Position numbers and translations under genes: made by a program. Below are positions 2,441 through 20,118 of a DNA stretch of 61,941 bases, one piece after another (the first letter of the stretch is position 1; each line of letters begins with the position of its first letter). Origin of the DNA: a virus; IMG/VR virus record IMGVR_UViG_3300033144_000144, positions 1 through 61,941 of that record. One strand, 5' to 3'. The notes beneath the pieces are model-generated. The model was not told the origin of the DNA, did not search any database, and saw only the letters and a program-made list of their open reading frames with translations.

Positions 2441-2666
2441 TAACCATATAAGGATTATCCTCGATCAACATCTCGTGTCCAGATGATTTATCATAATAGA
2501 TAATATCACCTTCGTTTATAACACTCACATCTGTACCTGACTTAATTACCTCACCCTTACGATATCTAAAGTCCGATGCGTCTTGTGCTGAAAGCAAAAG
2601 ACCTGATTCGGTTTTTAGTTCTTCTTTAATGGTTTTGATAATAATGTATTTACCTATTGGTTTCAT
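2409..2666 (-). CDS. groES: GroES-like co-chaperonin (Cpn10)
   Basis: An 85-residue protein, slightly shorter than bacterial GroES (about 97). It begins MKPIGKYIIIKTIKEELKTESGLLL, matching the Cpn10 first strand and the start of the mobile loop. It continues with the conserved beta-barrel pattern GEVIKSGTDVSVINEGDIIYYDKSSGHEM and a final EDNPYMVITERDVVVVL. The protein would cap the chaperonin and bind it through the mobile loop. The mobile loop is short. Its ATG overlaps the groEL stop (ATGA), so the pair is translationally coupled in the unusual order groEL then groES. Confidence 0.9.
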   Translation of the reverse strand: MKPIGKYIIIKTIKEELKTESGLLLSAQDASDFRYRKGEVIKSGTDVSVINEGDIIYYDKSSGHEMLIEDNPYMVITERDVVVVL

Positions 2667-4321: not shown

Positions 4322-4353
4322 AAGAAATATATTTAATTTAAATTAATTATGGG

Positions 4354-4361
4354 CAAAGATA
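4354..4361 (-). promoter_or_regulatory. Candidate promoter of groEL-groES
   Basis: TATCTTTG on the minus strand matches TAnnTTTG, 33 nt before the groEL ATG. Upstream, TTGACAC units of the repeat module (4376-4390) place a TTG 18 nt from the box. This could act as the -33 element and would make the repeats an operator of this promoter. Confidence 0.6.
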
Positions 4362-4375
4362 CTAAAAAAATATTT

Positions 4376-4480
4376 GTGTCAATGTGTCAATGTTTTTTTA
4401 TTTATAGACTATATATATTCTATTACTATATATTATTTTTTTATTTATAAAATATTAGATTTCGTTGACACTTCGACACT
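4376..4480. repeat. Inverted iteron module 1 with AT-rich core
   Basis: The left arm is GTGTCAAT twice in tandem (4376-4391, period 8). TATAGACTAT follows at 4403-4412. After a 74-nt spacer that is almost entirely A/T comes the inverted right arm TTGACACT-TCGACACT (4465-4480). A further single GTGTCAA lies at 4518-4524. The same layout with almost the same spacings occurs at 13840-13943. Inverted iterons around an AT-rich core suggest a replication origin or a shared operator. Confidence 0.75.
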
Positions 4481-4550
4481 AATTAATATAAGTAACTATA
4501 AATGAGTAACTTACAAAGTGTCAATAAAAACAGGGCTTAACACTGTATAT

Positions 4551-4584
4551 AAAAAAAAGAGGCTACCTCTCAGTAAACCTCTCT
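4551..4584 (-). terminator. Rho-independent terminator
   Basis: On the minus strand an AGAGG...CCTCT hairpin (with two alternative upstream AGAGG copies) is followed by a run of eight T (plus-strand A run 4551-4558). It lies 25 nt beyond the stop of the 66-aa gene at 4609 and would stop that transcript before the groEL control region. Confidence 0.7.
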
Positions 4585-4608
4585 TACAACAGAACAAATG
4601 GGATTTCT

Positions 4609-4809
4609 TTAGAACTTAAATATCTTCTTATGTTCTTTACGCATCTCAGCTCTTTCAATACCGTCAGCGATTTTATCTATTTCATATTGCTTCTTCATTT
4701 GATTTCTATACATCGAAGCCTCTTGGATTCCAGTCATACCAACTGGGCGATCATTAATTAATCTTCCGTTCTTAATTCTTAATCCGTCCATGTCTGCGTA
4801 CTTTTTCAT
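4609..4809 (-). CDS. Small protein of unknown function, 66 aa
   Basis: A 66-residue hydrophilic protein (MKKYADMDGLRIKNGRLIND...), with a predicted helical, charged C-terminal half (IERAEMRKEHKKIF). It has its own TATCTTTG box 16 nt upstream and a hairpin terminator downstream, so it forms a single-gene transcript. That placement supports it being real. No domain is recognised. Confidence 0.75.
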   Translation of the reverse strand: MKKYADMDGLRIKNGRLINDRPVGMTGIQEASMYRNQMKKQYEIDKIADGIERAEMRKEHKKIFKF

Positions 4810-4824
4810 ATCGTTTATTTTTTA

Positions 4825-4832
4825 CAAAGATA
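4825..4832 (-). promoter_or_regulatory. Candidate promoter (-7 box)
   Basis: TATCTTTG on the minus strand lies 16 nt before the ATG at 4809. The predicted transcript would have only about a 10-nt leader. No convincing -33 element is seen. Confidence 0.55.
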
Positions 4833-4993
4833 TAAAAATTTTTTAGATGTCTGGGGGCTGAGGGTTATATGTCATCATACATTGCGTTGTGCGTTTAGAA
4901 AACAAAAAAAAATTTGCACCCCCCCCTAACCAAATCGGTTCACCTTGTCCAAATGTTTTGGCTTTTTTTCCAGCTGGGCTGGATGGCTACCTC

Positions 4994-5060
4994 TGTCCAG
5001 TTAGATAGGTGTACCAGTTACCCTTGTCCAGTTGTCGTTGTCCAGTTAAGTTGTCCAGTT
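4994..5060. repeat. Cluster of TGTCCAGTT repeats in the early control region
   Basis: TGTCCAGTT occurs four times in 67 nt (4994-5002, 5025-5033, 5039-5047, 5052-5060), with near copies at 4945-4952 and 5011-5019. The whole 4833-5258 stretch lacks a convincing gene. It also contains small hairpins (CCAAA-TGT-TTTGG followed by a T run at about 4949-4969, and CCAGC-TGG-GCTGG next to it). It lies upstream of the early promoter, so protein-binding sites or a structured regulatory segment are plausible. Confidence 0.5.
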
Positions 5061-5258
5061 AAGCTACCTTCCCCCATCTGACCAGTAAGGATAAGACAAA
5101 TGCTCACTTTGAATAGACAAAGAGAGATGTCTTATAACCCCTGACCGAGAGCCATAATGCGTAAACAAAACAAAAAAGTTATCAACAATCTAACTGACTG
5201 ATAATCACTGACATTACATATTGAATTTGTATGGGACAATGTATTCAACAAGTATTTG

Positions 5259-5290
5259 TTTGTCTATGTCATAGAATTAGACTATCTTTA
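5259..5290 (+). promoter_or_regulatory. Candidate early promoter
   Basis: TTTG at 5259-5262 and TATCTTTA at 5283-5290 are separated by exactly 20 nt. This fits the Bacteroidetes -33/-7 layout with one mismatch in the -7 box. The spacing is identical to the second plus-strand promoter at 11183-11214. The first early ATG is 36 nt downstream at 5326. Confidence 0.65.
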
Positions 5291-5325
5291 CACTGAATTT
5301 AAACATTAAACAAACACAAATTATT

Positions 5326-5583
5326 ATGAAAAATTACGAAAAAGCATTCGAAGAATTGAGAAAATTGAACATAGCTGTCCAGCGTAACTGGGGCGATGAC
5401 AAGGTACACGAAGACAGAGGTTACTTCTGGATATGGTGCGAAGGCATCACTGATGAAACCAGTTATCACATCGACTACTGGAACAGATTCGAAGGTAGCG
5501 AAAAGGTTCAGTCGATACTGGAGAAGCACGACCTATATTTCGAATGGGAGAATAGTGCAGTAGCATCAATCTACGATGCATAA
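5326..5583 (+). CDS. Early protein of unknown function, 85 aa
   Basis: This is the first gene after the early promoter. Its 85 residues include many Trp, Tyr and acidic residues (RGYFWIWCEGITDETSYHIDYWNRFEGSE). No signal peptide or membrane segment is present. The stop codon (5581-5583) is followed after one base by hammerhead ribozyme 1. Position and composition suggest a small host-takeover or anti-defence protein, but there is no direct evidence for that role. Confidence 0.8.
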   Translation: MKNYEKAFEELRKLNIAVQRNWGDDKVHEDRGYFWIWCEGITDETSYHIDYWNRFEGSEKVQSILEKHDLYFEWENSAVASIYDA

Positions 5584-5584
5584 A

Positions 5585-5638
5585 GGCAATCTGATGAGAC
5601 CTGAATGGTCGAAACTGGAGGAGACTCCAGTCATTGTC
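5585..5638 (+). ncRNA. Type I hammerhead ribozyme 1
   Basis: Stem I is GGCAAT (5585-5590) with ATTGTC (5633-5638). The core CTGATGA is at 5591-5597. Stem II is GACC/GGTC with loop TGAAT (5598-5610), followed by GAAA at 5611-5614. Stem III is CTGGAG-GAGA-CTCCAG (5615-5630) with a GNRA tetraloop. The TC at 5631-5632 completes the cleavage site, so the cut is expected after C5632. All invariant core positions (CUGANGA, GAA, A-U closing pair, H17=C) are present. The ribozyme starts one base after the upstream stop and its cut leaves a 30-nt leader before ATG 5663. Confidence 0.9.
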
Positions 5639-5662
5639 AAACAAAATTTAAACGAAATTATT

Positions 5663-5899
5663 ATGAATTTAATTGCAAAAAATCCCAAGCATCAAACGAT
5701 GGTTAACCGATGTGTTAACTGGTTAAAAAAGTACAATGAGTACAACACACAAAGAGACATTGCTGATGGCAATGGAGATGAAAAGCAGTATGCTAAATGG
5801 GACAAGAAATGCATCAAAGCATTCGATATGTACCTTGAGTACCTATCTGAATTACCGAAGAGAGAGGTAACTCAAATCGAGAAATCAGAATTATATTAA
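5663..5899 (+). CDS. Early protein of unknown function, 78 aa
   Basis: The start is set at ATG 5663 (MNLIAKNPKHQTMVNRC). The open frame extends back to 5576, but that extension is the hammerhead ribozyme sequence and the upstream gene end. The chosen start has the A/T-rich leader typical of this phage. The 78 residues are mostly helical and charged (VNWLKKYNEYNTQRDIADGNGDEKQYAKWDKK). No family is recognised. Confidence 0.75.
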   Translation: MNLIAKNPKHQTMVNRCVNWLKKYNEYNTQRDIADGNGDEKQYAKWDKKCIKAFDMYLEYLSELPKREVTQIEKSELY

Positions 5900-5919
5900 T
5901 CACTAAAAATCACACAGAA

Positions 5920-6492
5920 ATGAACACACAAAATTTGAATTTAATCGCAACTCAGCTGAAGGTAACTCAGCTGGTGAACCAGTACCACAAAGTGTACAAA
6001 GCTACACTGGAGAAGAATCTGAACGATAAACCAATCAAGAACGATGGCTGGGATTCTATGCAAGAGAGAGAAGAACAAGTATCTTACAAGTTAGGTAACA
6101 AGTTTTATCCGAAGTTAAGAATGATACTGGAAGAGGTAGGTATCTCAAATGATATGGCTACCACCATCGGACATCTGTTACTGGACGAGCCAAGTAAGGA
6201 ACACTGGACAATAATCAAGTCTTTCTTTGAGCCAATTGAATTCATCAGTGAGGATGAAATCAATAGATCTATAGAAAAGCATAATGGGTACACTAACATT
6301 GAGACCTACAGACTATGTCTGATACTGGATAACATTGTTATGAAACATAATGCTATGCACTACTTTTTCGAGTACCTCCAGCAAGGAGAATTCACTGAAA
6401 AAGACTACCATAAAATTAACTGGAACGAGGTTAATGAGAGGTATTTAGAACAACATATGGATATTAACTATGATAACATCCTGAATCGATAA
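5920..6492 (+). CDS. Early protein of unknown function, 190 aa
   Basis: 190 residues, soluble, predicted mainly helical (QLKVTQLVNQYHKVYKATLE near the N-terminus and EEVGISNDMATTIGHLLLDEPSKEHW in the middle). No catalytic signature is visible. The stop at 6490-6492 is immediately followed by hammerhead ribozyme 2, which begins at 6493. Confidence 0.85.
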   Translation: MNTQNLNLIATQLKVTQLVNQYHKVYKATLEKNLNDKPIKNDGWDSMQEREEQVSYKLGNKFYPKLRMILEEVGISNDMATTIGHLLLDEPSKEHWTIIKSFFEPIEFISEDEINRSIEKHNGYTNIETYRLCLILDNIVMKHNAMHYFFEYLQQGEFTEKDYHKINWNEVNERYLEQHMDINYDNILNR

Positions 6493-6555
6493 ATACTCTG
6501 ATGAGCAACACTGGAAGGTGGCGAAACTTCCCCAGTCAGCTGGGGGAGTCAGTAT
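6493..6555 (+). ncRNA. Type I hammerhead ribozyme 2
   Basis: Stem I is ATACT (6493-6497) with AGTAT (6551-6555). CTGATGA is at 6498-6504. Stem II (6505-6522) pairs GC-CAC with GTG-GC around an AA bulge, followed by GAAA at 6523-6526. Stem III is nine pairs, CTTCCCCAG with CTGGGGGAG, around loop TCAG (6527-6548). TC is at 6549-6550 with the cut expected after C6550, leaving a 23-nt leader before ATG 6574. Compared with copy 1 nearly every helix base differs while pairing is kept. Confidence 0.9.
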
Positions 6556-6573
6556 AAACTAAATAATATAAAA

Positions 6574-7011
6574 ATGGGATACAACACAGACTGGAATGGG
6601 TACTTGGAGACAAGTCGACCATTCACCGAAAGCGAGATTAATCAGTGGACAGAGATGGCTGAAACAAGGCACGATAGCGAGTACCATTATGGTAACTCAC
6701 AAAGGGAATACCCATCAATATGGTGCGACTTTGAAATCAGTAATCAGGAAGGTACTGGAGTCTTCCAGTGGAACGGAAGTGAAAAAACCTATGAAGGTTT
6801 AGGATGGATTAAATACTTCCTTAACTGGACAATGAAACTTGATGAACCAATGGTGGTGAAAGGTAGGTTTGATTGGGAAGGTGAAGAAGAAGGTGATGAA
6901 GGAGTAGTTATAGTAGAACGCAAAGATAGAGACTACATCATCCATATTGGTGAGGTAGAAAAACATTACCACAAAGTGATGAAGGCACATACTCTGATGA
7001 GACTTAAGTAG
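6574..7011 (+). CDS. Early protein of unknown function, 145 aa
   Basis: 145 residues, rich in Trp, Tyr and acidic residues (GYNTDWNGYLETSRPFTESEINQW; FDWEGEEEGDEGVVIVERKDRDYIIHIGEV), probably an alpha/beta fold. The last eight codons and the stop (about 6988-7011) are the same bases as the first part of hammerhead ribozyme 3, so this gene's end is both coding and catalytic RNA. No family is recognised. Confidence 0.85.
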   Translation: MGYNTDWNGYLETSRPFTESEINQWTEMAETRHDSEYHYGNSQREYPSIWCDFEISNQEGTGVFQWNGSEKTYEGLGWIKYFLNWTMKLDEPMVVKGRFDWEGEEEGDEGVVIVERKDRDYIIHIGEVEKHYHKVMKAHTLMRLK

Positions 7012-7043
7012 TCGAAACTACTCCAGCTGGAGTAGTCAGTATG
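6988..7043 (+). ncRNA. Type I hammerhead ribozyme 3 (overlaps the 3' end of a gene)
   Basis: Stem I is CATACT (6988-6993) with AGTATG (7038-7043). CTGATGA is at 6994-7000. Stem II is GACT-TAAGT-AGTC (7001-7013), followed by GAAA at 7014-7017. Stem III is CTACTCC-AGCT-GGAGTAG (7018-7035). TC is at 7036-7037, with the cut after C7037 and a 27-nt leader before ATG 7065. The 5' half encodes the last residues and TAG stop (7009-7011) of the upstream gene, so a terminating ribosome would sit on the core. Confidence 0.92.
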
Positions 7044-7064
7044 AATTTAAATAATAACACACAA

Positions 7065-7553
7065 ATGAAAAAGTACATTGTAATAGATACTTGGAATGGT
7101 GAAGGTTACTCCGACCAAAATGGAGTAGATACCAAGCAGTTTCAGTATAAAAAGTCAGCATTTAAATATGCTTATGACAGAACCTTAAGTAATGCTGATG
7201 GAGATGCAGATTTAGTTTGCAGATATTCAGATGAAGAATCTGATAGTGAACACTGGTCACCAGTTAAAAGAGATGCTGATGGAGATGGATTCTATTGGGA
7301 TACCTATGATGATAATTCAGGTAGCTATCAAGTTTATGAGATTAAAGATGCATATGCAGTTATGATACTATGCAACACAAACGAAGTTTATATGCTTACT
7401 GAAGATGAGTACATCGACAGAAAAAATGAATTGTATGAAGATTATGCTTCAGCTGAATATACAGATGAAATATATGAAGAAGAAAATGGTGATTCTTTTT
7501 ATCCAGCAATAGATGATTATGACTACCAATTTAGATTAATTAAAAACCTATAA
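7065..7553 (+). CDS. Early acidic protein of unknown function, 162 aa
   Basis: The start is set at ATG 7065 (MKKYIVIDTWNGEGYSDQNG). An earlier in-frame ATG at 7041 lies inside stem I of ribozyme 3, right after the cut site, and is less likely. The protein is strongly acidic (DADGDGFYWDTYDDNSGSYQ; EDYASAEYTDEIYEEENGD), a composition common in DNA-mimic and other host-interaction proteins, though no such function is shown. It ends 2 nt before the lipoprotein gene. Confidence 0.8.
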   Translation: MKKYIVIDTWNGEGYSDQNGVDTKQFQYKKSAFKYAYDRTLSNADGDADLVCRYSDEESDSEHWSPVKRDADGDGFYWDTYDDNSGSYQVYEIKDAYAVMILCNTNEVYMLTEDEYIDRKNELYEDYASAEYTDEIYEEENGDSFYPAIDDYDYQFRLIKNL

Positions 7554-7555
7554 AA

Positions 7556-7738
7556 ATGAAAAAGACAATAATAATATTCTCTGCAATAATCACATTGAGT
7601 AGTTGTGGAATGATGAACAAGTTATCTGATGAGCAATTACATCAAAGAAATAAAATTGATTATGAGATGTCAAAACTTTGGAATGAATACCAAGTAAAGA
7701 ACGACTCTTTACTAATTGAATACTATAAAATTAAATAG
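7556..7738 (+). CDS. Small phage-encoded lipoprotein, 60 aa
   Basis: The N-terminus MKKTIIIFSAIITL followed by SSCG is a textbook lipoprotein signal peptide with lipobox L14-S-S-C17. After signal peptidase II cleavage, Cys17 would be lipidated, leaving a 44-residue helical, charged domain. It lies in the early operon, immediately downstream of another early gene. A membrane-anchored early phage lipoprotein could block receptor use or DNA entry by a second phage, as the T5 lipoprotein does. This is an analogy from placement and architecture, not sequence similarity. Confidence 0.8.
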   Translation: MKKTIIIFSAIITLSSCGMMNKLSDEQLHQRNKIDYEMSKLWNEYQVKNDSLLIEYYKIK

Positions 7739-7740
7739 AT

Positions 7741-8079
7741 ATGGAAATGAAAATTATGAGATTAAGCGAAGTAACATTTGAGATGTTACAGAACCAGTAT
7801 CCTGAATGCTACAAATCAAAATTCGGCAGAGGTGTAACAATGCCAAATGCAGATGACTCACAAAGAGTAATATCTAATGAGGATGCGTTAACACACTACA
7901 AAGAATTAATGATTGGCATGTGGGGAGATGTAATGATTCAATTAAATCCTGAAAGTTTCACTTGGTTTGACCGAGTACAGATTCAGGATGCAAACTTCAA
8001 AGATGCACGAAGAAGATTTACAGAACACAAAGCCGAAGTCATTGCTGACTGGAGCAAAAAAGGATACAATACCGATTAG
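7741..8079 (+). CDS. Early protein of unknown function, 112 aa
   Basis: 112 residues, start at ATG 7741 just after the lipoprotein stop. It is soluble and mixed alpha/beta, with the C-terminal helical part DARRRFTEHKAEVIADWSKKGYNTD. No domain is recognised. A 110-nt gap with an RNA-like fold follows it. Confidence 0.75.
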   Translation: MEMKIMRLSEVTFEMLQNQYPECYKSKFGRGVTMPNADDSQRVISNEDALTHYKELMIGMWGDVMIQLNPESFTWFDRVQIQDANFKDARRRFTEHKAEVIADWSKKGYNTD

Positions 8080-8091
8080 TTTGTGTGTGAA

Positions 8092-8168
8092 GAAGGTTTA
8101 ATTCACCTTCCTACCTTAACCTCAATGCGTAAATGCATTGGGGATTTGGTGGTAGAGGGATGTTCCTC
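8092..8168 (+). ncRNA. Structured intergenic RNA of unknown class
   Basis: The 110-nt gap before the gene at 8190 folds on paper into three helices. They are GAAGGT/ACCTTC (8092-8097 with 8105-8110), CTACC (8111-8115) with GGTAG (8151-8155) enclosing a 9-bp stem CCTCAATGC/GCATTGGGG (8120-8128 with 8135-8143), and GAGG/CCTC (8155-8158 with 8165-8168). It is not a hammerhead: CTGATGA and GAAA are missing. It sits at the same kind of gene junction as the four ribozymes. It could be another processing element or a weak terminator. I could not fit it to twister, HDV-like or pistol patterns. Confidence 0.45.
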
Positions 8169-8189
8169 GCAAAATTAAATTAAATTATT

Positions 8190-8648
8190 ATGGCAAAAAG
8201 AATTGCAAATTTCAATGTATCTGACCACTTATCCAGTCAGATAGAATACTTTCAGAAAAACAAAGGAGAGTATCAAGAAAACTTTACCAATGGATTTGAT
8301 GACAGAAGTTTAGATCTAATTACTGACAAAGAGATACAAGATTATTTCTTTTCAGCTGATAGTGAAGAACACCATTATCACTGGGAAGACTTCCTCTATG
8401 ATTTAGAAGAAGAATTCAGTCAGTACATAGGTAAAGTAGTTTCTGTTGAAGGAAGAAATATGGGCTGGAATAATAAAACTGGCTACAAGACATTTCAAAT
8501 TGAATCTACTGAAGATATCTTCAGACAGATAGCACCTGAATGTGACTTGACTTTTTCAATAGACAAAGTAGATAACAAAGAATATGAGGTGGTCATAGCA
8601 CATCACGACTCACCAATGGGAGAAAATTATAACTTAAAAATTAAATAG
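8190..8648 (+). CDS. Early protein of unknown function, 152 aa
   Basis: 152 residues, acidic in the middle (SADSEEHHYHWEDFLYDLEEEFSQYIG), followed by a beta-rich half (VVSVEGRNMGWNNKTGYKTFQIES) and a C-terminal EVVIAHHDSPMGENYNL. No membrane segment and no recognised family. It is followed 2 nt later by a membrane protein gene. Confidence 0.85.
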   Translation: MAKRIANFNVSDHLSSQIEYFQKNKGEYQENFTNGFDDRSLDLITDKEIQDYFFSADSEEHHYHWEDFLYDLEEEFSQYIGKVVSVEGRNMGWNNKTGYKTFQIESTEDIFRQIAPECDLTFSIDKVDNKEYEVVIAHHDSPMGENYNLKIK

Positions 8649-8650
8649 AT

Positions 8651-8890
8651 ATGGCAATTAAAAGACATCCAAAAGACAGAGGATATGGTTACAAGAAATC
8701 ATATAACTATGAGCAATCGATAGCTGAACACGAAGATTTAGAACCAACAAAAGAAGACTGGGCAAAGTTAAGGGAGAGAATGCCTTCACTGATATGTGAG
8801 TCACTAATCTTTGGATTTGGGGCTGGTACATTCCTTCTGATTATAGCTTCGATAATCATCGGAGTATTGAACCTATTACACACATTATAA
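8651..8890 (+). CDS. Small membrane protein, 79 aa
   Basis: The 50-residue hydrophilic N-terminal part (KRHPKDRGYGYKKSYNYEQ...) is followed by one strong C-terminal membrane segment (LIFGFGAGTFLLIIASIIIGV, about residues 52-73). It is likely an inner-membrane tail-anchored protein with a cytoplasmic head. Its position in the early operon suggests a host-directed function, but none can be assigned. Confidence 0.8.
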   Translation: MAIKRHPKDRGYGYKKSYNYEQSIAEHEDLEPTKEDWAKLRERMPSLICESLIFGFGAGTFLLIIASIIIGVLNLLHTL

Positions 8891-8948
8891 ACACAAAAGT
8901 TTGGTTATTTAATATATTTAAACTATTATTGTACAAAATTTAAACATT

Positions 8949-9185
8949 ATGACAGAGCAACAATACCATTCTCTTACAAGATATCTTGCAGAGGAAACTG
9001 CACACCATAAGTTTGGTGAGGATGCAGTACACTACAACTCCAGCACTGGAGAACACGAATTCACACATCACGCTGAAAAATTTATTAGAGATGAAATTAG
9101 TAATCTTGAATTTCTGTTTGAGGTGTATGATGTGAAACCTAAATTAAGTTTAATTAAAAGAATAAAAAAATGGCTGAAAAATTAA
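8949..9185 (+). CDS. Early protein of unknown function, 78 aa
   Basis: 78 residues with a His- and Glu-rich N-terminus (SLTRYLAEETAHHKFGEDAVHYNSS) and a basic C-terminus (LSLIKRIKKWLKN). It overlaps the next gene by 16 nt in another frame. The 58-nt gap upstream shows only A/T-rich leader sequence. Function unknown. Confidence 0.75.
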   Translation: MTEQQYHSLTRYLAEETAHHKFGEDAVHYNSSTGEHEFTHHAEKFIRDEISNLEFLFEVYDVKPKLSLIKRIKKWLKN

Positions 9186-9538
9186 TTGACAAAGTAGATG
9201 ATGGATTCAACTACTTTAGTTACCGATTAGAAGAATTAAAGACAGATGATGTGTACTACATAAAAGCATTTATGAAGTACATTGAATCTCTTGAATCAAA
9301 ACTATCTAAAGTTAGTAAAGACTACAGAAACACATTAAATGATTATCAGTCACCTATGTGGCTGATGACATACAATGATGTTGTTGGAGGATCTACACAC
9401 GAGGTAGTTACAAATGATCCCCAGTTATATCTCAAGAGACTTAACAGAGACAGAGTAGCTGATGGTGAATTACCTGATACGATGGATGAATTCACCAAGA
9501 CCTTAATCAAATTAGAAACCTTTAAAAAATCAAAATAA
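9170..9538 (+). CDS. Early protein of unknown function, 122 aa
   Basis: 122 residues. The N-terminal half is predicted coiled coil or helical (YRLEELKTDDVYYIKAFMK, SLESKLSKVSKDYRNTL), the C-terminal half mixed. It overlaps the gene upstream by 16 nt and its stop shares one base with the next start (TAATG). No family is recognised. Confidence 0.75.
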   Translation: MAEKLIDKVDDGFNYFSYRLEELKTDDVYYIKAFMKYIESLESKLSKVSKDYRNTLNDYQSPMWLMTYNDVVGGSTHEVVTNDPQLYLKRLNRDRVADGELPDTMDEFTKTLIKLETFKKSK

Positions 9539-9801
9539 TGAGAGAAGTAAAGATTAGTAGTCGTACTATATACTCCAAGACTTGTGAGATATATATTGAA
9601 ATTCCAAAAGACATACCTCAAGATAAAGTATCAGACTGGTTATTCGAAAACGAAATAAAGTGGACTGATGCTATCGACAATGCAAATGGCGAAGCAGTTT
9701 TAGACTTCGGATTTGGATTAGATGATGGTATGGAAGATAAGAATTCTGAACACGAGATGAGATTTGACATCGTAGGTGAAAACTATGGTGGACATATTTA
9801 A
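9538..9801 (+). CDS. Early protein of unknown function, 87 aa
   Basis: 87 residues: a basic beta-strand N-terminus (REVKISSRTIYSKTCEIYIEI) and an acidic C-terminal half (LDFGFGLDDGMEDKNSEHEM). Its stop at 9799-9801 is immediately followed by hammerhead ribozyme 4. No recognised domain. Confidence 0.75.
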   Translation: MREVKISSRTIYSKTCEIYIEIPKDIPQDKVSDWLFENEIKWTDAIDNANGEAVLDFGFGLDDGMEDKNSEHEMRFDIVGENYGGHI

Positions 9802-9857
9802 ATACTCTGATGAGCCAATGAGATTTTGGCGAAACTGGTAGCAATACCAGTCAGTAT
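9802..9857 (+). ncRNA. Type I hammerhead ribozyme 4
   Basis: Stem I is ATACT (9802-9806) with AGTAT (9853-9857). It can extend through a 3-nt AAA bulge into TATTTAA/TTAAATA (9795-9801 with 9861-9867). CTGATGA is at 9807-9813. Stem II is GCCAA/TTGGC (9814-9830), followed by GAAA at 9831-9834. Stem III is CTGGTA-GCAA-TACCAG with a GNRA loop (9835-9850). TC is at 9851-9852, with the cut after C9852 and a 23-nt leader before ATG 9876. Confidence 0.92.
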
Positions 9858-9875
9858 AAATTAAATAAAATCGTT

Positions 9876-10604
9876 ATGCCTAATTATGTTTATTGTGGGA
9901 TATCTCCCACTAAAGATTTGACTCCTGAACAAATCGAGATAGCAAAAAAGATTCAGGAAGCTGGAGGATTATGTAGATATTATGTACCAAGACCAGCTGA
10001 ATTAGATAAGACTACTTCACCAACAAGAGTAGTTAGTGATGAAGAGTATCACAAAGCAATGAAACTCAATGAGACTGAAAAATTTAAATCTTATCCTATT
10101 ACAAGGGAGATGCAAAAGTCTTTATTGAAAGCACATAACTTTGACAATTGGTACGATTGGTCACACTATCACTGGGGAACAAAGTGGGGAGATTGTGACT
10201 TCGATATAGACTGGAATAAAGATGGAACTCACTTCGAAATGAGGTTTGATACTGCTTGGTCACCAATTGCTTTAGAAATTATTATTATGTTTGCTAAAGA
10301 TTTCCCTGATTTCACTTACTGGTGGGAAGAAGAACAAGGATGGGGAGGAGAATGCGACTACACTAATGGAGAAGAGTCAAGATATATGGAGTATGATATT
10401 CCAAACTGGACTGATGAAGAAGAAGTAGAGATCTCGCATAAAGGAAAGCTAATAGTTACTACGCTGACTAAACTTGCAGACCAGCATCCTAACTATGATA
10501 ATGGTACTGGATACTATTTAGATTATGGTCACGAATATGCTGGTAAGACAAGAATCGAAGCACTGGAATATGTGATGAAAAATTATGAGAAAGAAAATGT
10601 TTAG
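9876..10604 (+). CDS. Api92/DUF1281-like ferredoxin-fold protein
   Basis: 242 residues. The segment from about 80 to 160 resembles the ferredoxin-like Api92/YubB (DUF1281) family found on phages and plasmids: NWYDWSHYHWGTKWGDCDFD, then FDTAWSPIALEIIIMFAKDFPDFTY with the characteristic TAWSP and FPD, and an aromatic, acidic stretch. The biochemical role of the family is not established. It follows ribozyme 4 and overlaps the next gene by 8 nt. Confidence 0.75.
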   Translation: MPNYVYCGISPTKDLTPEQIEIAKKIQEAGGLCRYYVPRPAELDKTTSPTRVVSDEEYHKAMKLNETEKFKSYPITREMQKSLLKAHNFDNWYDWSHYHWGTKWGDCDFDIDWNKDGTHFEMRFDTAWSPIALEIIIMFAKDFPDFTYWWEEEQGWGGECDYTNGEESRYMEYDIPNWTDEEEVEISHKGKLIVTTLTKLADQHPNYDNGTGYYLDYGHEYAGKTRIEALEYVMKNYEKENV

Positions 10605-10893
10605 GTTAATTAGACAAGAGAAGCTGAAGTCGAAACCTGATGTAGATTATATCAGGTTTCTTCAGCAACTTACCGACAGAGAAAATGTTAAAGCATTCCT
10701 ATCCGAATATAAGCAAACTAAACATTTAGAAAAGCTACGCAAAGCCAATGTAATTGAATTAAATGACTACTTTAATTATAGTGGTAAGCGAGAAGAGAAC
10801 GGAAGAATAACAAAGAAACCAATTGAATATCAGGATAAAAAAACTATCACGATAATCAATGATATGAGTAAATATAAATTTAATAAAAATTAG
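10597..10893 (+). CDS. Small basic protein of unknown function, 98 aa
   Basis: ATG 10597 (MFRLIRQEKLKSKPDVDYI) is preferred. A start at 10585 would overlap the upstream gene more, and both are possible. The protein is helical and Lys-rich, with repeated short charged helices (FLQQLTDRENVKAFLSEYK). It ends one base before the DUF1599-like gene. No family recognised. Confidence 0.7.
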   Translation: MFRLIRQEKLKSKPDVDYIRFLQQLTDRENVKAFLSEYKQTKHLEKLRKANVIELNDYFNYSGKREENGRITKKPIEYQDKKTITIINDMSKYKFNKN

Positions 10894-10894
10894 T

Positions 10895-11176
10895 ATGAAA
10901 AAAACCACTGAAGAATTAATCAAAGAAGTAGGGAGAGAAGTAGTTATGTTGCTACTTGAAAAGAACAAAGCGTATGGCGATACTGCCAACAAGCCCCCTA
11001 AAATATTTTCAAAGCTATCAGCAAAGGAAGGTATCCTTGCAAGGATCGATGACAAGTTAAGTAGGATCAAGCAAGTAGGTATCAATGACAAAACAGAAGA
11101 CACTTTGCTGGATCTTATTGGCTACCTTATATTGTATAGAGTACAATGTAAGATGGAAGAAATTAAAAAAAGTTAA
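10895..11176 (+). CDS. DUF1599-like (nucleotide-modification-associated) small protein
   Basis: 93 residues with the family pattern LLLEKNKAYGDTANKPPKIFSK, then EGILARIDDKLSRIKQ, then EDTLLDLIGYLILYRV. This matches the all-helical DUF1599 type, related in fold to MazG-like nucleotide pyrophosphohydrolases and common near nucleotide-metabolism genes in phages. A role in nucleotide pools or DNA modification is a family-level inference. It is the last gene before the second plus-strand promoter. Confidence 0.75.
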   Translation: MKKTTEELIKEVGREVVMLLLEKNKAYGDTANKPPKIFSKLSAKEGILARIDDKLSRIKQVGINDKTEDTLLDLIGYLILYRVQCKMEEIKKS

Positions 11177-11182
11177 ACATAA

Positions 11183-11214
11183 TTTGCTCAAGTAATACTA
11201 AAGTATTATCTTTG
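11183..11214 (+). promoter_or_regulatory. Candidate promoter of the replication genes
   Basis: TTTG at 11183-11186 and a perfect TATCTTTG at 11207-11214 are separated by 20 nt, the same spacing as the early promoter at 5259-5290. A leader of about 110 nt follows before ATG 11332. It contains a hairpin, GTGTGT (11234-11239) with ACACAC (11265-11270), and an inner GTAG/CTAC pairing. Confidence 0.75.
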
Positions 11215-11331
11215 ACAACTAATAAAAATTAAGGTGTGTAATGGTAGTAGCGTAATTATCTACAACACACTTAATAAGAGAGAAATCATTTGCGAACCAA
11301 ACTCTTGCCTTATTTTTCTAAATTCAATTAA

Positions 11332-11625
11332 ATGAAAAAAAATATTTTCGATGCGTATGCGTTAGCAATCGCAAAGCAATTTCATCTGTCACTCGATCAG
11401 ATGTTTACCAAGACTAAAAGAAGAGAGGTAGTAGATGCAAGACAAATGTTATACTATCTCTGTATGGAAAGACCAATTCGTATATCCTACATACAAAGAT
11501 TTATGGAGGATGCTGGATTAAGCGTATGCCACTCTACTATTATACATGGTTACAAGAAAGCAAAGGAGACTATAGATAAAGATAAAGACTTTAAAGATAT
11601 AGTAACTCAACTTCAGGATGTATAA
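11332..11625 (+). CDS. Stand-alone DnaA domain IV-like DNA-binding protein
   Basis: 97 residues. The run REVVDARQMLYYLCMERP (about 31-48) and later CHSTIIHGYKKAKETI (66-81) match the helix-turn-helix of DnaA domain IV, where VDARQIAMYL and HSTVIHA carry the basic loop and signature helix. The AAA+ ATPase part of DnaA is absent. It probably recognises a specific DNA site. The GTGTCRA/TTGACAC iterons are candidate targets (inference). It is first in the replication operon, after a long structured leader. Confidence 0.8.
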   Translation: MKKNIFDAYALAIAKQFHLSLDQMFTKTKRREVVDARQMLYYLCMERPIRISYIQRFMEDAGLSVCHSTIIHGYKKAKETIDKDKDFKDIVTQLQDV

Positions 11626-12025
11626 TTTAGAAGACATATTTACTCAAGCCGAAGCTGATGCATCAGGGATACAGATTACAATGCTCAATGGGAAAAGCAT
11701 TGTAAACTATGGTGTAAAGATTCAGAAGTTTCCATCCAAGATCGAGATACTTAATTGTGGTCGAAGTGGAGATTACTTTAACGAATGCAACGATGATGAG
11801 TATAAACTTTTCTTCAAGTACGGATGGAGAGAAGGTGCATTAAGATTATCATTATCCAATTATAAACGGAAGTTAGATATGATTGAAGAAAAAATCAGGA
11901 CTGAAGTTAACACAAGGAAAAATGATAAGCACATTCAACGACTTAAAACGAGTCGAGAAAAATTATTAATTAAATATAGTAACAGAAATCGTAAATTAAA
12001 TTTATTAAACAATGGGACAAAGTAA
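11618..12025 (+). CDS. Protein of unknown function, 135 aa
   Basis: 135 residues, overlapping the preceding gene by 8 nt and the following by 14 nt. The N-terminal half is mixed alpha/beta with two cysteines (LNCGRSGDYFNECNDDEY). The C-terminal half is a long basic coiled coil (LDMIEEKIRTEVNTRKNDK...RLKTSREKLLIKYSNRNRK). It may be an accessory factor to recombination or replication, judging only by its neighbours. Confidence 0.75.
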   Translation: MYNLEDIFTQAEADASGIQITMLNGKSIVNYGVKIQKFPSKIEILNCGRSGDYFNECNDDEYKLFFKYGWREGALRLSLSNYKRKLDMIEEKIRTEVNTRKNDKHIQRLKTSREKLLIKYSNRNRKLNLLNNGTK

Positions 12026-12629
12026 GAAAAACAATTTCAAGGATTTATCTTCCATATCTATTGCAGATAAAACAGATAAGAAAGGAAAGTTTAGCTATTT
12101 ATCTTGGGCTACTGCTTGGTCGATGATCAAGACAGAACATCCTGATGCACAAAGAACAGTGTATGAATCTGAACATACTGGACTTAACTTCTTTACAGAT
12201 GGTAAGTCAGCATATGTGAAGGTAGGTATTACTATTGATGGTATGGAACACATAGATTACCTACCAGTAATGGACTATCGTAATAATTCTATTCCAATTG
12301 ATAAGGTAACATCAATGGATGTAAACACTGCAATTCAAAGATCAACTGCAAAAGCTATTGCTATGCATGGATTAGGTTTATCATTATGGATTGGTGAAGA
12401 CACAATGATGGTGGCTAAACCTACTGCACAAGCAGTGGCTAAAACACCAGTGCCACCAAAGAAAATTACCACAATGGAATTAAATATTGGTGATGAGAAT
12501 TGGGATAAAGTTATTAAGTACATAGTAGCTAATAAACAATTAGGGCTACCTAAAATTGTAAAGCAACTGGAAGCCAAGTACAAGATAAAAGCAGTAGTAA
12601 AAAAGGAATTATCAAAACATATTAAATAA
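12012..12629 (+). CDS. DUF1071/Sak-type single-strand annealing protein
   Basis: 205 residues with the family features FSYLSWATAWSMIKTEHPDA, a beta-sheet core (AYVKVGITIDGMEHIDYLPVMDYRN) and VNTAIQRSTAKAIAMHGLGLSLW. These match phage annealases of the DUF1071 group, which pair complementary single strands during recombination-dependent replication. After about residue 135 comes a Pro/Ala linker and a small helical C-terminal domain. It is directly followed (TAATG) by a PD-(D/E)XK exonuclease, the usual partner. Confidence 0.85.
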   Translation: MGQSKKNNFKDLSSISIADKTDKKGKFSYLSWATAWSMIKTEHPDAQRTVYESEHTGLNFFTDGKSAYVKVGITIDGMEHIDYLPVMDYRNNSIPIDKVTSMDVNTAIQRSTAKAIAMHGLGLSLWIGEDTMMVAKPTAQAVAKTPVPPKKITTMELNIGDENWDKVIKYIVANKQLGLPKIVKQLEAKYKIKAVVKKELSKHIK

Positions 12630-13387
12630 TGAAGTTTACTACTAAACAATGGAAAGAAAGCATTGAGAAGCTAAAAGATGATTCTCAATATTACGGAGAC
12701 TTTGGTAAACAATACTTATCAAACTCTGATATCATAACTCTACTTAATGATCCTAAAAATTTCAGGAAAGAAAAGGAGATGACCAAAGCTATGCTACTTG
12801 GAAGATACTTCCATACTGCAATGTTAGAACCTAACAAACTACATAGCGAAGAGTACATTCCTATTGATGCATCAAGTCGTAGCACTAAAAAGTATAAAGA
12901 AGAAATTCTACAATACAACAGACCGATAATGATGCTGAAAAAGGAAATGGAAGAGATAGATGTGGCTATCAATACAATGAAAGCTAACCTTGAATTCTAT
13001 GATGCAATCTATCATCCAAAGAATGAGTATGAAGTACCAGCTATCCAAGAGGTAGAAGGTATGATGTGGAAAGGTAAAGCTGATATTGTAGCTGAAGATA
13101 TTCTTATTGATCTGAAGACAACTTCAAACATCAAAGATTTTAAATACTCGGCTCGTAAGTATAATTACGATAGTCAAGCGTATCTTTACCAGCAATTCTT
13201 TGGTAAGCCACTGGTATTCTATGTGGTAGATAAATCAACATATGAATTAGGAATCTATTATCCATCTCAAACTTTCTTGGAGTATGGAAAAGACAAAGTA
13301 GAGAGAGCAATAGAAGTGTATAACAAATTCTTTAAAGAAAATGCAGAAGAAAATATTGAATCTTATATCATTAAAGAAACTCTTTAA
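12629..13387 (+). CDS. PD-(D/E)XK exonuclease (RecE/Cas4-like)
   Basis: 252 residues. The N-terminal LLGRYFHTAMLEPNKL is the conserved helix with His of this exonuclease family. The catalytic core is MWKGKADIVAEDILIDLKTTSNI (Asp...Asp-X-Lys) followed by YNYDSQAYLYQQFF with the motif-IV Gln and Tyr. It would resect double-stranded ends to feed the annealing protein upstream. Its last 47 bases overlap a 56-residue ORF in another frame. Confidence 0.85.
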   Translation: MKFTTKQWKESIEKLKDDSQYYGDFGKQYLSNSDIITLLNDPKNFRKEKEMTKAMLLGRYFHTAMLEPNKLHSEEYIPIDASSRSTKKYKEEILQYNRPIMMLKKEMEEIDVAINTMKANLEFYDAIYHPKNEYEVPAIQEVEGMMWKGKADIVAEDILIDLKTTSNIKDFKYSARKYNYDSQAYLYQQFFGKPLVFYVVDKSTYELGIYYPSQTFLEYGKDKVERAIEVYNKFFKENAEENIESYIIKETL

Positions 13388-13511
13388 GTATAAAAAAAAT
13401 GATGTCGTGTGGTTGCAAGTTCCTAACAACCTCAAGACTCAAGCTGATCGTGACAAGGTCATGGAGGCAACAATGAACAAATTGGAACAAATAATTTACA
13501 AATCAATTTAA
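13341..13511 (+). CDS. Small overlapping protein, 56 aa
   Basis: This 56-residue ORF fills the otherwise empty 126-nt gap between the exonuclease and the SSB-like gene. It begins inside the exonuclease gene at ATG 13341. Its outside-overlap part reads DVVWLQVPNNLKTQADRDKVMEATMNKLEQI, a sensible amphipathic sequence. Its stop is 2 nt before the next ATG, fitting the operon's tight packing. The start is uncertain because the N-terminal 15 residues lie in the overlap. Confidence 0.6.
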   Translation: MQKKILNLISLKKLFKYKKNDVVWLQVPNNLKTQADRDKVMEATMNKLEQIIYKSI

Positions 13512-13513
13512 TT

Positions 13514-13783
13514 ATGGCAGAAGAAAAAATCTATGTCGGAAACGGAGTTTCCAAATTCGAAGGGAATCTTATCTCTTGTAGTGTGTGCTTAACAGATCTT
13601 CCACAGGAACATATGTTCGAGTACAATGGTAAGAAGTACATTAAGTTAAATGTACAAGCAAAGCGTGATGGTGCTGATGAGTATGGCAAGACACACTATG
13701 TGGCAGTCGATACTTACAAACCTGAACCAAAGAAGGAAGAAGTAAAACCTACTGCACCAGCAGAGGAAGATCTTCCATTCTAA
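13514..13783 (+). CDS. Probable single-stranded DNA-binding protein (SSB-like tail)
   Basis: 89 residues. A beta-rich N-terminal part (KIYVGNGVSKFEGNLISCSVCLTDLP...KKYIKLNVQAKRDGADEYG...YVAVDTYKP) is followed by a Lys/Pro linker and the C-terminal tip EEDLPF. An acidic tip ending in Pro-Phe is the hallmark of bacterial and phage SSB tails that recruit other proteins. The compact N-terminus could be a small OB-like domain, with no clear homologue recognised. A terminator follows. Confidence 0.65.
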   Translation: MAEEKIYVGNGVSKFEGNLISCSVCLTDLPQEHMFEYNGKKYIKLNVQAKRDGADEYGKTHYVAVDTYKPEPKKEEVKPTAPAEEDLPF

Positions 13784-13804
13784 TACTTGTTTTAGTAGAA
13801 AAGT

Positions 13805-13834
13805 TAGGGGACTTGTTCCCCTTTCTTTTTCTTT
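13805..13834 (+). terminator. Rho-independent terminator
   Basis: AGGGG (13806-13810) pairs with CCCCT (13818-13822) around loop ACTTGTT and is followed by a T-rich run to 13834. It lies 22 nt after the SSB-like gene and just before iteron module 2. It would end the recombination-gene transcript. Confidence 0.75.
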
Positions 13835-13839
13835 AATCG

Positions 13840-13943
13840 GTGTCGAAGTGTCAAGTAAAATAAAATTATAGACTATTAGTATTAATATATACTTCTATCT
13901 ATTTACTTTTTACTTTTTTAAAATACTTTGACACTTTAACACT
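13840..13943. repeat. Inverted iteron module 2 with AT-rich core
   Basis: The left arm is GTGTCGAA-GTGTCAAG (13840-13855, period 8). TATAGACTAT (13867-13876) begins 27 nt from the arm start, exactly as in module 1. After an A/T-rich spacer the inverted right arm TTGACACT-TTAACACT is at 13928-13943. TTGACACTTCGACAC of module 1 equals the reverse complement of this module's left arm. It lies 32 nt before the primase/helicase ATG, a natural place for an origin or operator. Confidence 0.8.
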
Positions 13944-13975: not shown

Positions 13976-16387
13976 ATGGAAATAACAATATTTAAAGATA
14001 TTAAAGATACTGCTCAACCTTTTTATAGAGATGTATCGATAATATTAGACAGAATAAAAAAGGGAGCATCACAAGAGATAGTGAGAGCAATCCGATCAGA
14101 ATCAGATAAAGAAAAAAGAAATCTATTAAAGCAGTCATTACCAGCAATTTGTTTCAGTGGTAAATTTACCAAAAGAAATGACAGTTCATTGAGCCAACAT
14201 AGTGGTATCATATGTTTAGACTTCGACAACTTCCCATCAGAGAAGTTAATGCTGGAAGAAAAAGAAATTATAACACAAGATAGATATACCTATTCTTGTT
14301 TCATTTCACCAAGTGGTCTTGGGTTAAAGGTGTTGGTTAAGATACCAGCTGAAGAAGACAACCATAAAAAATTCTTCAACTCATTACAACATCATTATGG
14401 TTCAGAGTTCTTTGACCAAACATGCAAGAATGTATCAAGGGTTTGTTATGAATCATATGATCCACTGATTTACATCAACGAACAATCAAGTATATTCAAT
14501 CAAATAACTGAACAAGAATATCAAGAGGTAGTAAAACATAAAGATGCACAGACAATTCCAATCACAGATGAAAATAAAATAGTAGAGATACTTATGAAGT
14601 GGTGGGAAAGAAAATACGGATTTAAAAGTGGTGAAAGAAATAATAATATATATATTCTTGCATCAGCTTTCAATGACTTTGGTGTTACACAAACACTGGC
14701 GGAGTATGTAATGAATCCATTTACCTCTGATGACTTTAGTTCATATGAATTAAAAAGAACAATTAGATCAGCTTACGCACAGAAACAAAACTTCGGTACA
14801 AAGTATTACGAAGATGAGGAGAAAGTTAAAAGCGTAAAGCAAAAGATACGAAGAGGTATATCTAAAAGTGAAATCAAAAATCAATTGGTAGATTCAAGTG
14901 AGATAGATGAGGTAGTGGTTGATAATGTATTGAGAAGGTTTGAAGAGGAGCAAGATGAACAAAAGTTCTGGAGTAAAAGTGAGAAGGGTGTAGTAAAGAT
15001 TATTCATCTATCATTTAAAAACTTTTTAGAAGACAATGGATTCTATAAGTTTAGTCCTGAAGGTAGTAAAAACTATGTCTTTGTAAAGGTGACTAACAAC
15101 CTCATCGAACACGCATCAGAAAAAGAAATAAAAGATTTTGTATTGGAGTATCTATTAGAGATAGAAGATACCAGTATATATAATTACTTTGCTGAATGTA
15201 CTCGATACTTTAGAGAAGAGTTCCTCACATTACTTTCTTCTATCAGCGTTTACTTTATTGCAGATGATAAAGATACTGCATACTTATACTATACAAATTG
15301 TGCAGTAAAGATTACTAAAGATGATGTTACACCAATTGATTACTTGGATTTGGGTGGATATGTGTGGAAGGATCATGTAATAGATAGGGTGTTTGATATA
15401 TGTGAGATAACTGATTGTGATTTTCAAACTTTTATAAATAACATTTCAGGAAACGATAGCAAGAGAACCAAATCAATGGAATCCACTATTGGATTTTTAC
15501 TGCATGGTTGGAAGAATTTATCTTATTGTCCAGCCACTATATTAAATGATGAGATTATATCTGACAATCCTGAAGGTGGTACTGGTAAGGGTTTGTTTAT
15601 GAATGGAATATCCCATATGAAGAAGCTCGTAGTTATTGATGGAAAATCCTTTAACTTTGAAAAATCATTTGCATACCAGCTGGTGTCAGCTGACACACAA
15701 ATACTTTGTTTCGATGATGTTAAAAAGAATTTTAACTTTGAAAGATTATTTAGTGTGGTGACAGAAGGATTAACTTTAGAGAAGAAGAACAAGGATGCTA
15801 TCAAGATTCCTTTTTCTAAATCACCTAAAGTAGCAATCACTACTAACTATGCGATTAGAGGTAAGGGTAATTCATTTGCTCGTAGAAAGTGGGAGTTAGA
15901 ATTAAATCAATTCTATACTAAAGAGTTCACTCCACTTGTAGAGTTTGGTAAGCTAATGTTTGGGGAATGGGATGATAATGACTGGTGTCAGTTCGATAAT
16001 TATATGATTAAGAACCTTCAGTTATATTTAGATAAAGGTTTATTGAGAAGTGATTTCATTAATCAAAAGACCAGGACATTTGCCGCCAATACATCTTACT
16101 CATTTGTAGAATGGTGTGGTGTGATTGACAATAAGAGACACCCAAAGTTGGTGACTAAAACAAAAATCTATAAGAACGATTTGTATTTAGATTTTATAGA
16201 TGATTATCCTGATTACGCACCTAAAAGTAGGGAAGCAATCAGTCGTAATGAGTTTGGTAAATGGCTGATGTCATATGCAGATTTCCAGTACGGATGTGAT
16301 GCCTTACAAGGTAGGGACAACATAGGTAGATGGATAGAGTTTGTAACAAAAAGTTATTATGAAAAACAAGAAACATTAAAATTATGA
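13976..16387 (+). CDS. BT4734-type primase fused to SF3/D5-like helicase
   Basis: 803 residues. The N-terminal domain (about 50-180) matches the BT4734/VirE-N type seen in Bacteroidetes replication proteins: CFSGKFTKRNDSSLSQHSGIICLDFDN, then SCFISPSGLGLKVLVKIP and RVCYESYDP. The C-terminal half has Walker A EGGTGKG (533-539), a Walker B-like QILCFDDVKKNF and TTNYAIRGKGNSFARRKWELE typical of DUF5906/D5-type SF3 helicases. It would initiate and unwind at the replication origin. It sits directly behind iteron module 2. No DNA polymerase gene is present, so host polymerase is presumably recruited. Confidence 0.9.
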   Translation: MEITIFKDIKDTAQPFYRDVSIILDRIKKGASQEIVRAIRSESDKEKRNLLKQSLPAICFSGKFTKRNDSSLSQHSGIICLDFDNFPSEKLMLEEKEIITQDRYTYSCFISPSGLGLKVLVKIPAEEDNHKKFFNSLQHHYGSEFFDQTCKNVSRVCYESYDPLIYINEQSSIFNQITEQEYQEVVKHKDAQTIPITDENKIVEILMKWWERKYGFKSGERNNNIYILASAFNDFGVTQTLAEYVMNPFTSDDFSSYELKRTIRSAYAQKQNFGTKYYEDEEKVKSVKQKIRRGISKSEIKNQLVDSSEIDEVVVDNVLRRFEEEQDEQKFWSKSEKGVVKIIHLSFKNFLEDNGFYKFSPEGSKNYVFVKVTNNLIEHASEKEIKDFVLEYLLEIEDTSIYNYFAECTRYFREEFLTLLSSISVYFIADDKDTAYLYYTNCAVKITKDDVTPIDYLDLGGYVWKDHVIDRVFDICEITDCDFQTFINNISGNDSKRTKSMESTIGFLLHGWKNLSYCPATILNDEIISDNPEGGTGKGLFMNGISHMKKLVVIDGKSFNFEKSFAYQLVSADTQILCFDDVKKNFNFERLFSVVTEGLTLEKKNKDAIKIPFSKSPKVAITTNYAIRGKGNSFARRKWELELNQFYTKEFTPLVEFGKLMFGEWDDNDWCQFDNYMIKNLQLYLDKGLLRSDFINQKTRTFAANTSYSFVEWCGVIDNKRHPKLVTKTKIYKNDLYLDFIDDYPDYAPKSREAISRNEFGKWLMSYADFQYGCDALQGRDNIGRWIEFVTKSYYEKQETLKL

Positions 16388-18054: not shown

Positions 18055-18382
18055 TATTGGTGAAGATTTTGTTGAGACAATACAAACTTTAGATATCAGA
18101 ACTGGAATAAAGGTTGCTCAATTTATAGATAAAAATATAGATAAAGTACCAGCAAACTCATTGGTGTCTACTGTACTGGGAGGTATAGTAGTTGATGACT
18201 TCAATGAAACTTTTCCTTTTGCATTAGAGGTTATTAAACACGATGAGGAATCAGAAGTTATTTTATCTGATCTTCAAATAATTTCTATGGATGAATACTT
18301 GGACTTATATAATATAAATTTAAATTTAATACAACATGAACATGAACATACAGAAAGTAAAAGCAGTAAAGAACCTGGTTAG
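18014..18382 (+). CDS. Protein of unknown function, 122 aa
   Basis: 122 residues from ATG 18014, which overlaps the VRR-NUC gene by 41 nt. No closer in-frame ATG exists before residue about 90, so this start or a non-ATG start is needed. It is acidic and mostly helical (GIKVAQFIDKNIDKVPANSLVSTVLGGIVV), ending in a His/Glu tail (QHEHEHTESKSSKEPG) coded within the overlap with the next gene. Function unknown. Confidence 0.65.
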   Translation: MELKQKYIKEGGYDIGEDFVETIQTLDIRTGIKVAQFIDKNIDKVPANSLVSTVLGGIVVDDFNETFPFALEVIKHDEESEVILSDLQIISMDEYLDLYNINLNLIQHEHEHTESKSSKEPG

Positions 18383-19995: not shown

Positions 19996-20069
19996 GGACG
20001 AGTAGCTCAATTGGATAGAGCATTAGCCTTCTAAGCTAACGGTTGAAGGTTCGAGTCCTTCCTCGTTCA
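19996..20069 (+). tRNA. tRNA-Arg (anticodon TCT)
   Basis: A complete 74-nt cloverleaf. The acceptor GGACGAG pairs with CTCGTTC (one G-T). The D arm is GCTC...GAGC. The anticodon stem TTAGC/GCTAA encloses loop CTTCTAA with anticodon TCT (20030-20032). The T arm is GAAGG-TTCGAGT-CCTTC and the discriminator base is A. CCA is not encoded. It reads AGA, the dominant Arg codon in the phage's many Arg-rich proteins. Confidence 0.95.
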
Positions 20070-20118
20070 CGAAATAAAATAAAATGTTTAGAGAAAAATT
20101 AATAGTAATCTGGCCATC

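Follow-up and report, generated by a model that had tools for sequence, protein, structure and literature searches.

We analysed a two-copy module of short repeated units in IMGVR_UViG_3300033144_000144, a full IMG/VR virus record of 61,941 bp (61.9 kb) that is referred to below as the window. Each module is quite probably an iteron-type replication origin, or an origin together with a partner acting in cis, to which the primase-helicase of the phage itself would bind. This interpretation draws on the conservation of the module layout among related phages and on the covariation of the repeated units with a predicted DNA-binding wing of the primase-helicase.

Architecture of the two modules

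The modules lie at 4376-4479 and 13840-13942, each consisting of two direct 7-bp units, about 70 nt of A/T-rich sequence and two inverted units. In copy 1, the left arm GTGTCAATGTGTCAA (4376-4390, plus strand) holds two direct GTGTCAA units at 8-bp spacing; the A/T-rich spacer (4391-4464), a candidate unwinding element with a T-rich plus strand, carries TATAGACTAT at 4403-4412; and the inverted right arm TTGACACTTCGACAC (4465-4479, minus strand) holds the units TTGACAC and TCGACAC. Copy 2 comprises the left arm GTGTCGAAGTGTCAA (13840-13854, plus strand; units GTGTCGA and GTGTCAA, 8-bp spacing), an A/T-rich spacer (13855-13927) with TATAGACTAT at 13867-13876, and the inverted right arm TTGACACTTTAACAC (13928-13942, minus strand; units TTGACAC and TTAACAC). 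The pair had been described at these places in a first-pass annotation of the window, and its details were recovered, i.e. distances between arm starts of 89 nt (copy 1) and 88 nt (copy 2), a start of TATAGACTAT at 4403 and 13867, in either copy 27 nt from where the arm begins, and positions upstream of groEL and of the primase-helicase gene.

The 15-mer GTGTYRAWGTGTCAA occurs exactly four times in the window, each time in a module arm, and when up to two mismatches were allowed it gave 5 matches against 1.3 expected. No enrichment was found in the window for the single unit TTGACAC (9 matches, 8.5 expected) or for TATAGACTAT with one mismatch (11 matches, 10.6 expected). Since single units occur at chance frequency, it is their arrangement that carries the signal. 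The 70-nt segment with the lowest GC content of the whole record is the copy 1 spacer (7.1% GC at 4393), and the second lowest is the copy 2 spacer (11.4% at 13856), tied with one other. Two modules each, and none further at the unit-scan threshold used, were detected in the window and in its closest annotated relative MW202828.1, a circular podovirus genome of 60,850 bp from Manatee Spring. GC skew, a check suggested in the first-pass annotation, follows gene orientation in sign and is therefore uninformative about origins.

Conservation of the layout upstream of the primase gene

Relatives of the window are mostly metagenomic contigs. A four-unit finder was applied to 81 primase loci (80 related loci and the window), and the layout was detected upstream of the primase in 49 of them; it turned up in none of 1,620 dinucleotide shuffles and in a single one of 2,883 random windows. 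The modules represent 33 distinct arm sets, span 102-109 nt and mostly have a unit spacing of 8/8 or 9/9. The units vary among phages (GTGTCAA, ATGTTAA, ATGACGA, ATGATAA, ATGCTCA, ATGTTCA, and ATTCCAA or ATGGCAG in some; consensus RTG(T/A)(C/T)RA) yet match inside one genome, left and right arms agreeing at 0.857 within genomes and 0.743 between genomes (0 of 20,000 permutations). Over 81 distinct modules, the spacers average 84% A+T, and T exceeds A on the same strand in 93%.

The proposal that spacing and motifs are under selection was confirmed, because the span of 102-109 nt is maintained with unrelated spacers and covarying units. The paired layout was also retained in close relatives, beside both groEL and the primase gene. 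The idea of TATAGACTAT as a conserved core had to be abandoned, as no more than 5 of 81 distinct spacers contained it with at most one mismatch, each of them from the window or a close relative. In Elemovirus isolates, the scan gave no convincing module, and none was seen by eye upstream of the replication gene block or of groEL. An asymmetric variant, with unit spacing of 7 bp in the left arm and 9 bp in the right arm, was observed at four loci (L044, L079, L083 and L084).

A second copy upstream of groEL

Using a motif-free scan and a unit scan, a second module was identified in 15 genomes including the window. It is located just upstream of the groEL start wherever groEL is in reach, 8-11 kb from the primase-side copy, whose orientation along the genome it shares. 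The groEL-side copy shares the units and spacing of the primase-side copy of its own genome (agreement 0.880, vs 0.742 between genomes; 0 of 100,000 permutations).

In three relatives (L058, L062 and L063), the groEL-side copy is retained and the primase-side copy is reduced or lost. Upstream of groEL, these phages display strongly diverged units (ATTCCAA/TTTGGAAT, with GTCTGCCAT on the right side of L062) together with an exact AATCAA....AGTTA element; judged from these sequences, specificity seems to have switched more drastically here than through the base changes analysed below.

Covariation between the units and the primase-helicase

In a discovery set of 34 non-redundant genomes, 1,714 columns from 12 conserved proteins were scored against the unit bases, close relatives being weighted most. 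Whole-protein and sliding-window distance correlations were rejected for this purpose: phylogeny dominates, no protein stands out, and per-column weighting of close pairs was needed. The top columns all belonged to the primase-helicase, i.e. residue 785 for unit position 5, residue 780 for A at unit position 4 and residue 782 for unit position 1. Both this protein and two small DnaA-domain-IV-like phage proteins had been named for DNA-binding tests in the first-pass annotation; the covariation predicts the former as binder, and at unit positions 1, 4 and 5 no column of the latter ranked first.

The prediction for residue 785 was fixed before 80 new loci were read, 70 of which were scored. It passed in these held-out genomes, with 116 C and 10 T for R785 and 0 C and 14 T for K785, and 785 ranked first among all variable primase columns. 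When 119 genomes were pooled, 785 was the first of 588 columns for unit position 5 and residue 733 the second. AA at unit position 4 was found in 10/10 genomes with K780 or a residue other than G at 784 and in 0/108 with R780 and G784, bearing in mind that genome counts are not counts of independent events. The groEL-side copies have C at unit position 5 in 23 of 24 units with R785 and in 2 of 28 with K785 (with R780). Unit position 6 and the 8/9 spacing are confounded with deep clades and have many tied columns, so no claim is made for them.

Predicted C-terminal domain of the primase-helicase

The proposed initiator is a protein of 803 aa (13976-16387, plus strand) matching the Pfam families BT4734-like_N and DUF5906, and weakly PriCT_1. 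Its C-terminal region was confidently modelled by AlphaFold2 as a winged helix (predicted local distance difference test 91, predicted template-modelling score 0.82), which we propose as the origin-binding domain (residues 697-790; 16064-16345, plus strand). In this model, the residues covarying with the units (780-785, R D N I G R; 16313-16330, plus strand) form the wing tip, and residue 733 (16172-16174) begins a helix of the fold. The best match of the domain among viral models was another virulence-protein-E-type phage protein (E = 4e-4). Neither the full primase nor the domain alone gave a meaningful match in sequence searches of the PDB.

Accessory units, IHF-like element and promoter element

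Relatives carry extra units outside the arms, in either orientation, and many primase-side copies have 2-3 additional units 11 bp apart directly before the ATG. In the window, two such accessory units lie to the right of copy 1, GTGTCAA (4518-4524, plus strand) and TTAACAC (4537-4543, minus strand).

Between the right arm of copy 1 and these units, 21 nt past the arm, stands AATGAGTAACTTA (4501-4513, plus strand), a degenerate element with two mismatches to the E. coli IHF consensus WATCAANNNNTTR against which it was scored; copy 2 is devoid of it. The element is exact at the same offset in many relatives. Exact elements accompany 12 primase copies out of 52, where 0.3 would be expected, and 6 groEL copies out of 15, where 0.2 would be expected, and in nearly all they lie 10 or 20-22 nt to the right of the right arm, i.e. 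at offsets about one helical turn apart. Judging from this resemblance, an IHF-family protein would be the binder.

On the other side of copy 1, 14 nt left of the left arm, a Bacteroidota-type -7 element TATCTTTG (within 4343-4362, minus strand) points toward groEL; it is a neighbour lying outside the repeated module. Its motif TAnnTTTG accompanies 13 of 15 groEL copies (window, L012, L017, L020, L026, L034, L041, L042, L047, L049, L056, L084 and L087), at a distance of 6-44 nt from the left arm, vs 0 of 15 primase copies on either side. As it is found beside groEL copies and never beside primase copies, a host promoter was rejected as the element common to both. Binding to the arm beside this -7 element could affect groEL transcription.

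Gene setting and relatives

Copy 1 is located between groEL (2663-4321, minus strand), whose start adjoins it as in relatives, and an open reading frame of 66 aa on its right (4609-4809, minus strand), with relatives in 22 of 82 searched loci. Copy 2 lies between the gene of a small protein with an acidic tail (13514-13783) and the primase-helicase gene. Neighbouring genes encode a Sak-type annealing protein, an exonuclease, a SNF2/ResIII-type helicase, a VRR nuclease and the two DnaA-domain-IV-like proteins (11332-11625 and 18336-18860). A tRNA-Arg (tct) gene (19996-20070, plus strand) stands close to the end of the rightward gene block.

No annotated phage was matched by the first 20 kb in a megablast search. 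The primase family, the promoter element and some labels of metagenome-assembled genomes suggest Bacteroidota as host phylum. Some primase relatives (L170-L175, L180 and L184) are contigs in metagenome-assembled genomes named Pseudomonadales, Aliivibrio, Gammaproteobacteria, Pacearchaeota or Taylorbacteria, and are probably mis-binned phage contigs.

Alternative explanations and points against an origin

The modules might serve as operators only, the primase-helicase controlling transcription by binding them (autorepression of primase and groEL) and replication starting elsewhere. Their location upstream of start codons, the units preceding the ATG in many primase-side copies, the host-type promoter element adjoining the groEL-side copy in 13/15 genomes, and some reduced primase-side copies in which no left arm is clear but the right arm and the downstream units are retained all speak for such a role. 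It is weakened, however, because the -7 elements are placed at variable distance from the groEL-side module and are absent from the primase copies, leaving no recognisable host promoter in the part common to both. Moreover, an operator would need neither a fixed span of about 106 nt nor an extremely A/T-rich, strand-asymmetric spacer, and the predicted binder is an initiator-type primase-helicase. We consider this explanation unlikely. Binding by the DnaA-domain-IV-like proteins, as at DnaA-box origins, appears improbable: both match Bac_DnaA_C and the first is present in 74 of 82 searched loci, but the units bear no resemblance to the DnaA box TTATCCACA, and the columns of the primase wing, rather than any of theirs, win in the discovery, held-out and pooled sets.

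Slightly less credible still is a cruciform, a hairpin or a recombination site, with the arms acting as structured DNA or RNA. The arms are indeed inverted repeats, but they are often imperfect, with the 7/9 spacing in L044, L079 and L083; a loop of 73 nt is long; additional units stand outside the arms in either orientation; and the DNA-binding wing with which the units covary is encoded at a distance of 8-11 kb from the groEL-side copy. Chance, or a recent local duplication of a low-complexity intergenic region, would agree with the A/T-rich context and with single units at chance frequency. This was the least probable explanation and is refuted by the shuffles (0/1,620), by the motif-free scan, with de novo finds in dozens of divergent phages, and by the groEL-side unit scan; the spacers of the two copies are also unrelated to each other.

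Several observations weigh against the origin interpretation itself. The modules sit directly upstream of genes, as operators do. The spacers of MW202828, a complete relative, are A/T-rich yet are not the minimum of its genome. The primase-side copy is absent in L062, L065 and L067, and is therefore not essential everywhere. In the covariation, a third set (46) gave 18 T and 2 C for K785 and 23 C and 31 T for R785, i.e. a weaker and asymmetric rule in which K785 almost always goes with T and R785 is permissive; a strict rule linking R785 to C was rejected on these counts. Residue 733 may be a second contact and may account for part of the exceptions, as K at this position goes with C and other residues mostly with T. 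Independent pairs, counted on a tree built from residues 1-690, were mostly 5-6 concordant and 0 discordant, a small number. As for structure, Foldseek against the PDB returned mostly weak matches to winged-helix proteins, none of them significant, including the P4 origin-binding domain (1ka8; E = 1.0, TM-score 0.31-0.34), and the full-protein AlphaFold2 model is poor over residues 515-663, in the helicase core region.

Proposed mechanism

From the covariation, we infer that the primase-helicase binds the units; the following proposal covers melting of the spacer, use as an origin and what each copy may do. The C-terminal winged helix would bind the 7-bp units, the wing tip (780-785) reading unit positions 4 and 5. 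Bound unit pairs would flank the A/T-rich element of about 70 nt, T-rich on one strand, at a distance of about ten helical turns. They would position the helicase rings and melt the spacer, and the same polypeptide would then unwind and prime, loading itself after spacer melting as proposed for Rep of Staphylococcus aureus pathogenicity islands (SaPI) and Cch2 of staphylococcal cassette chromosomes (SCC) (PMC7581432). The many relatives that carry the IHF-like element would be assisted by a bend of the IHF/HU type, 10 or 21 nt beyond the right arm. The primase may also be autoregulated through the accessory units close to its start, and the groEL-adjoining copy may have a further effect on groEL. 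Together, the copies may be two origins, or a single origin with a helper site as in P4.

A duplicated replication origin or a protein-binding switch had been suggested in the first-pass annotation. This general idea fits the evidence and the paired layout in relatives; the part played by TATAGACTAT is lost, and the likely binder is the wing of the primase-helicase instead of the DnaA-like proteins.

Comparison with known replicons

The closest parallels are found in phage-inducible chromosomal islands (PICI), whose origins have two iteron sets flanking an A/T-rich region, an organisation stated to be seen in no other known bacterial replicon (PMC6092414). As in SaPI and other PICI, the A/T-rich region has a set of short iterons on either side and lies beside the gene of a helicase or primase-helicase initiator, and iteron sequences are element-specific (PMC6092414, PMC7581432). 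A C-terminal iteron-binding domain has been reported for SaPI Rep and SCC Cch2 (PMC7581432), and a similar role is supported here by the covariation at primase residues 780-785. In contrast to these islands, whose ori is directly 3' of rep, the present modules lie 5' of the primase-helicase gene and of groEL, belong to a tailed-phage family of about 60 kb and not to a satellite, are doubled 8-11 kb apart, are accompanied by a phased IHF-like element, and have a predicted specificity mapped to wing residues. In SCCmec, short iterons lie next to the gene of the D5-family helicase Cch2 and are bound by the C-terminal domain of this helicase in isolation (PMC7581432); SCCmec differs by a separate polymerase-type primase, by three iterons downstream of the gene and by binding that does not require a paired inverted layout.

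Satellite phage P4 has a two-site layout of ori1 and crr, i.e. one origin plus a helper site, and two separated cis sites with the same iterons are found here too. P4 alpha, known as a primase and helicase (PMC8628076), combines both functions with C-terminal winged-helix origin binding, for which the present protein offers Pfam matches to an N-terminal primase-related family and DUF5906 and a modelled winged helix. It differs by its N-terminal primase-related family, which is BT4734-like_N here, and by an origin-binding domain giving only the non-significant structural match mentioned above.

Iteron plasmids (RK2, F, R6K, pSC101) also have iterons beside an A/T-rich unwinding element, and IHF assists in several of them; however, their Rep is not a primase-helicase, and their iterons are in tandem on one side instead of forming inverted pairs on both. 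In these plasmids, both the iterons and one of the two strands of the unwinding element are bound by Rep (PMC4081077). Origins of the oriC type differ by their DnaA boxes, the units here being RTG(T/A)(C/T)RA and the covariation favouring the primase wing over the DnaA_C-like proteins.

Biological significance

It is rare for a replication origin of an uncultured phage to be located. Sequence covariation alone was enough here to point to an origin candidate, to its probable initiator, and to the proposed binding domain and individual specificity residues of the latter, and directly testable predictions follow, e.g. that K785 should disfavour C at unit position 5. More tentatively, and as a possibility that we hold to be well short of probable, the modules could form a twin origin in a widespread aquatic phage family: two modules of the same specificity and orientation, 8-11 kb apart, would be bridged or fired together by the primase-helicase, and a wing code (780/784/785 for unit positions 4/5) would let lineages switch the two sites concertedly and thereby lose replication compatibility with relatives. 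The two modules prompt one to ask why the phages retain a second copy and how the pair switches specificity jointly. As origins, they would extend a PICI-like layout to a large phage family.

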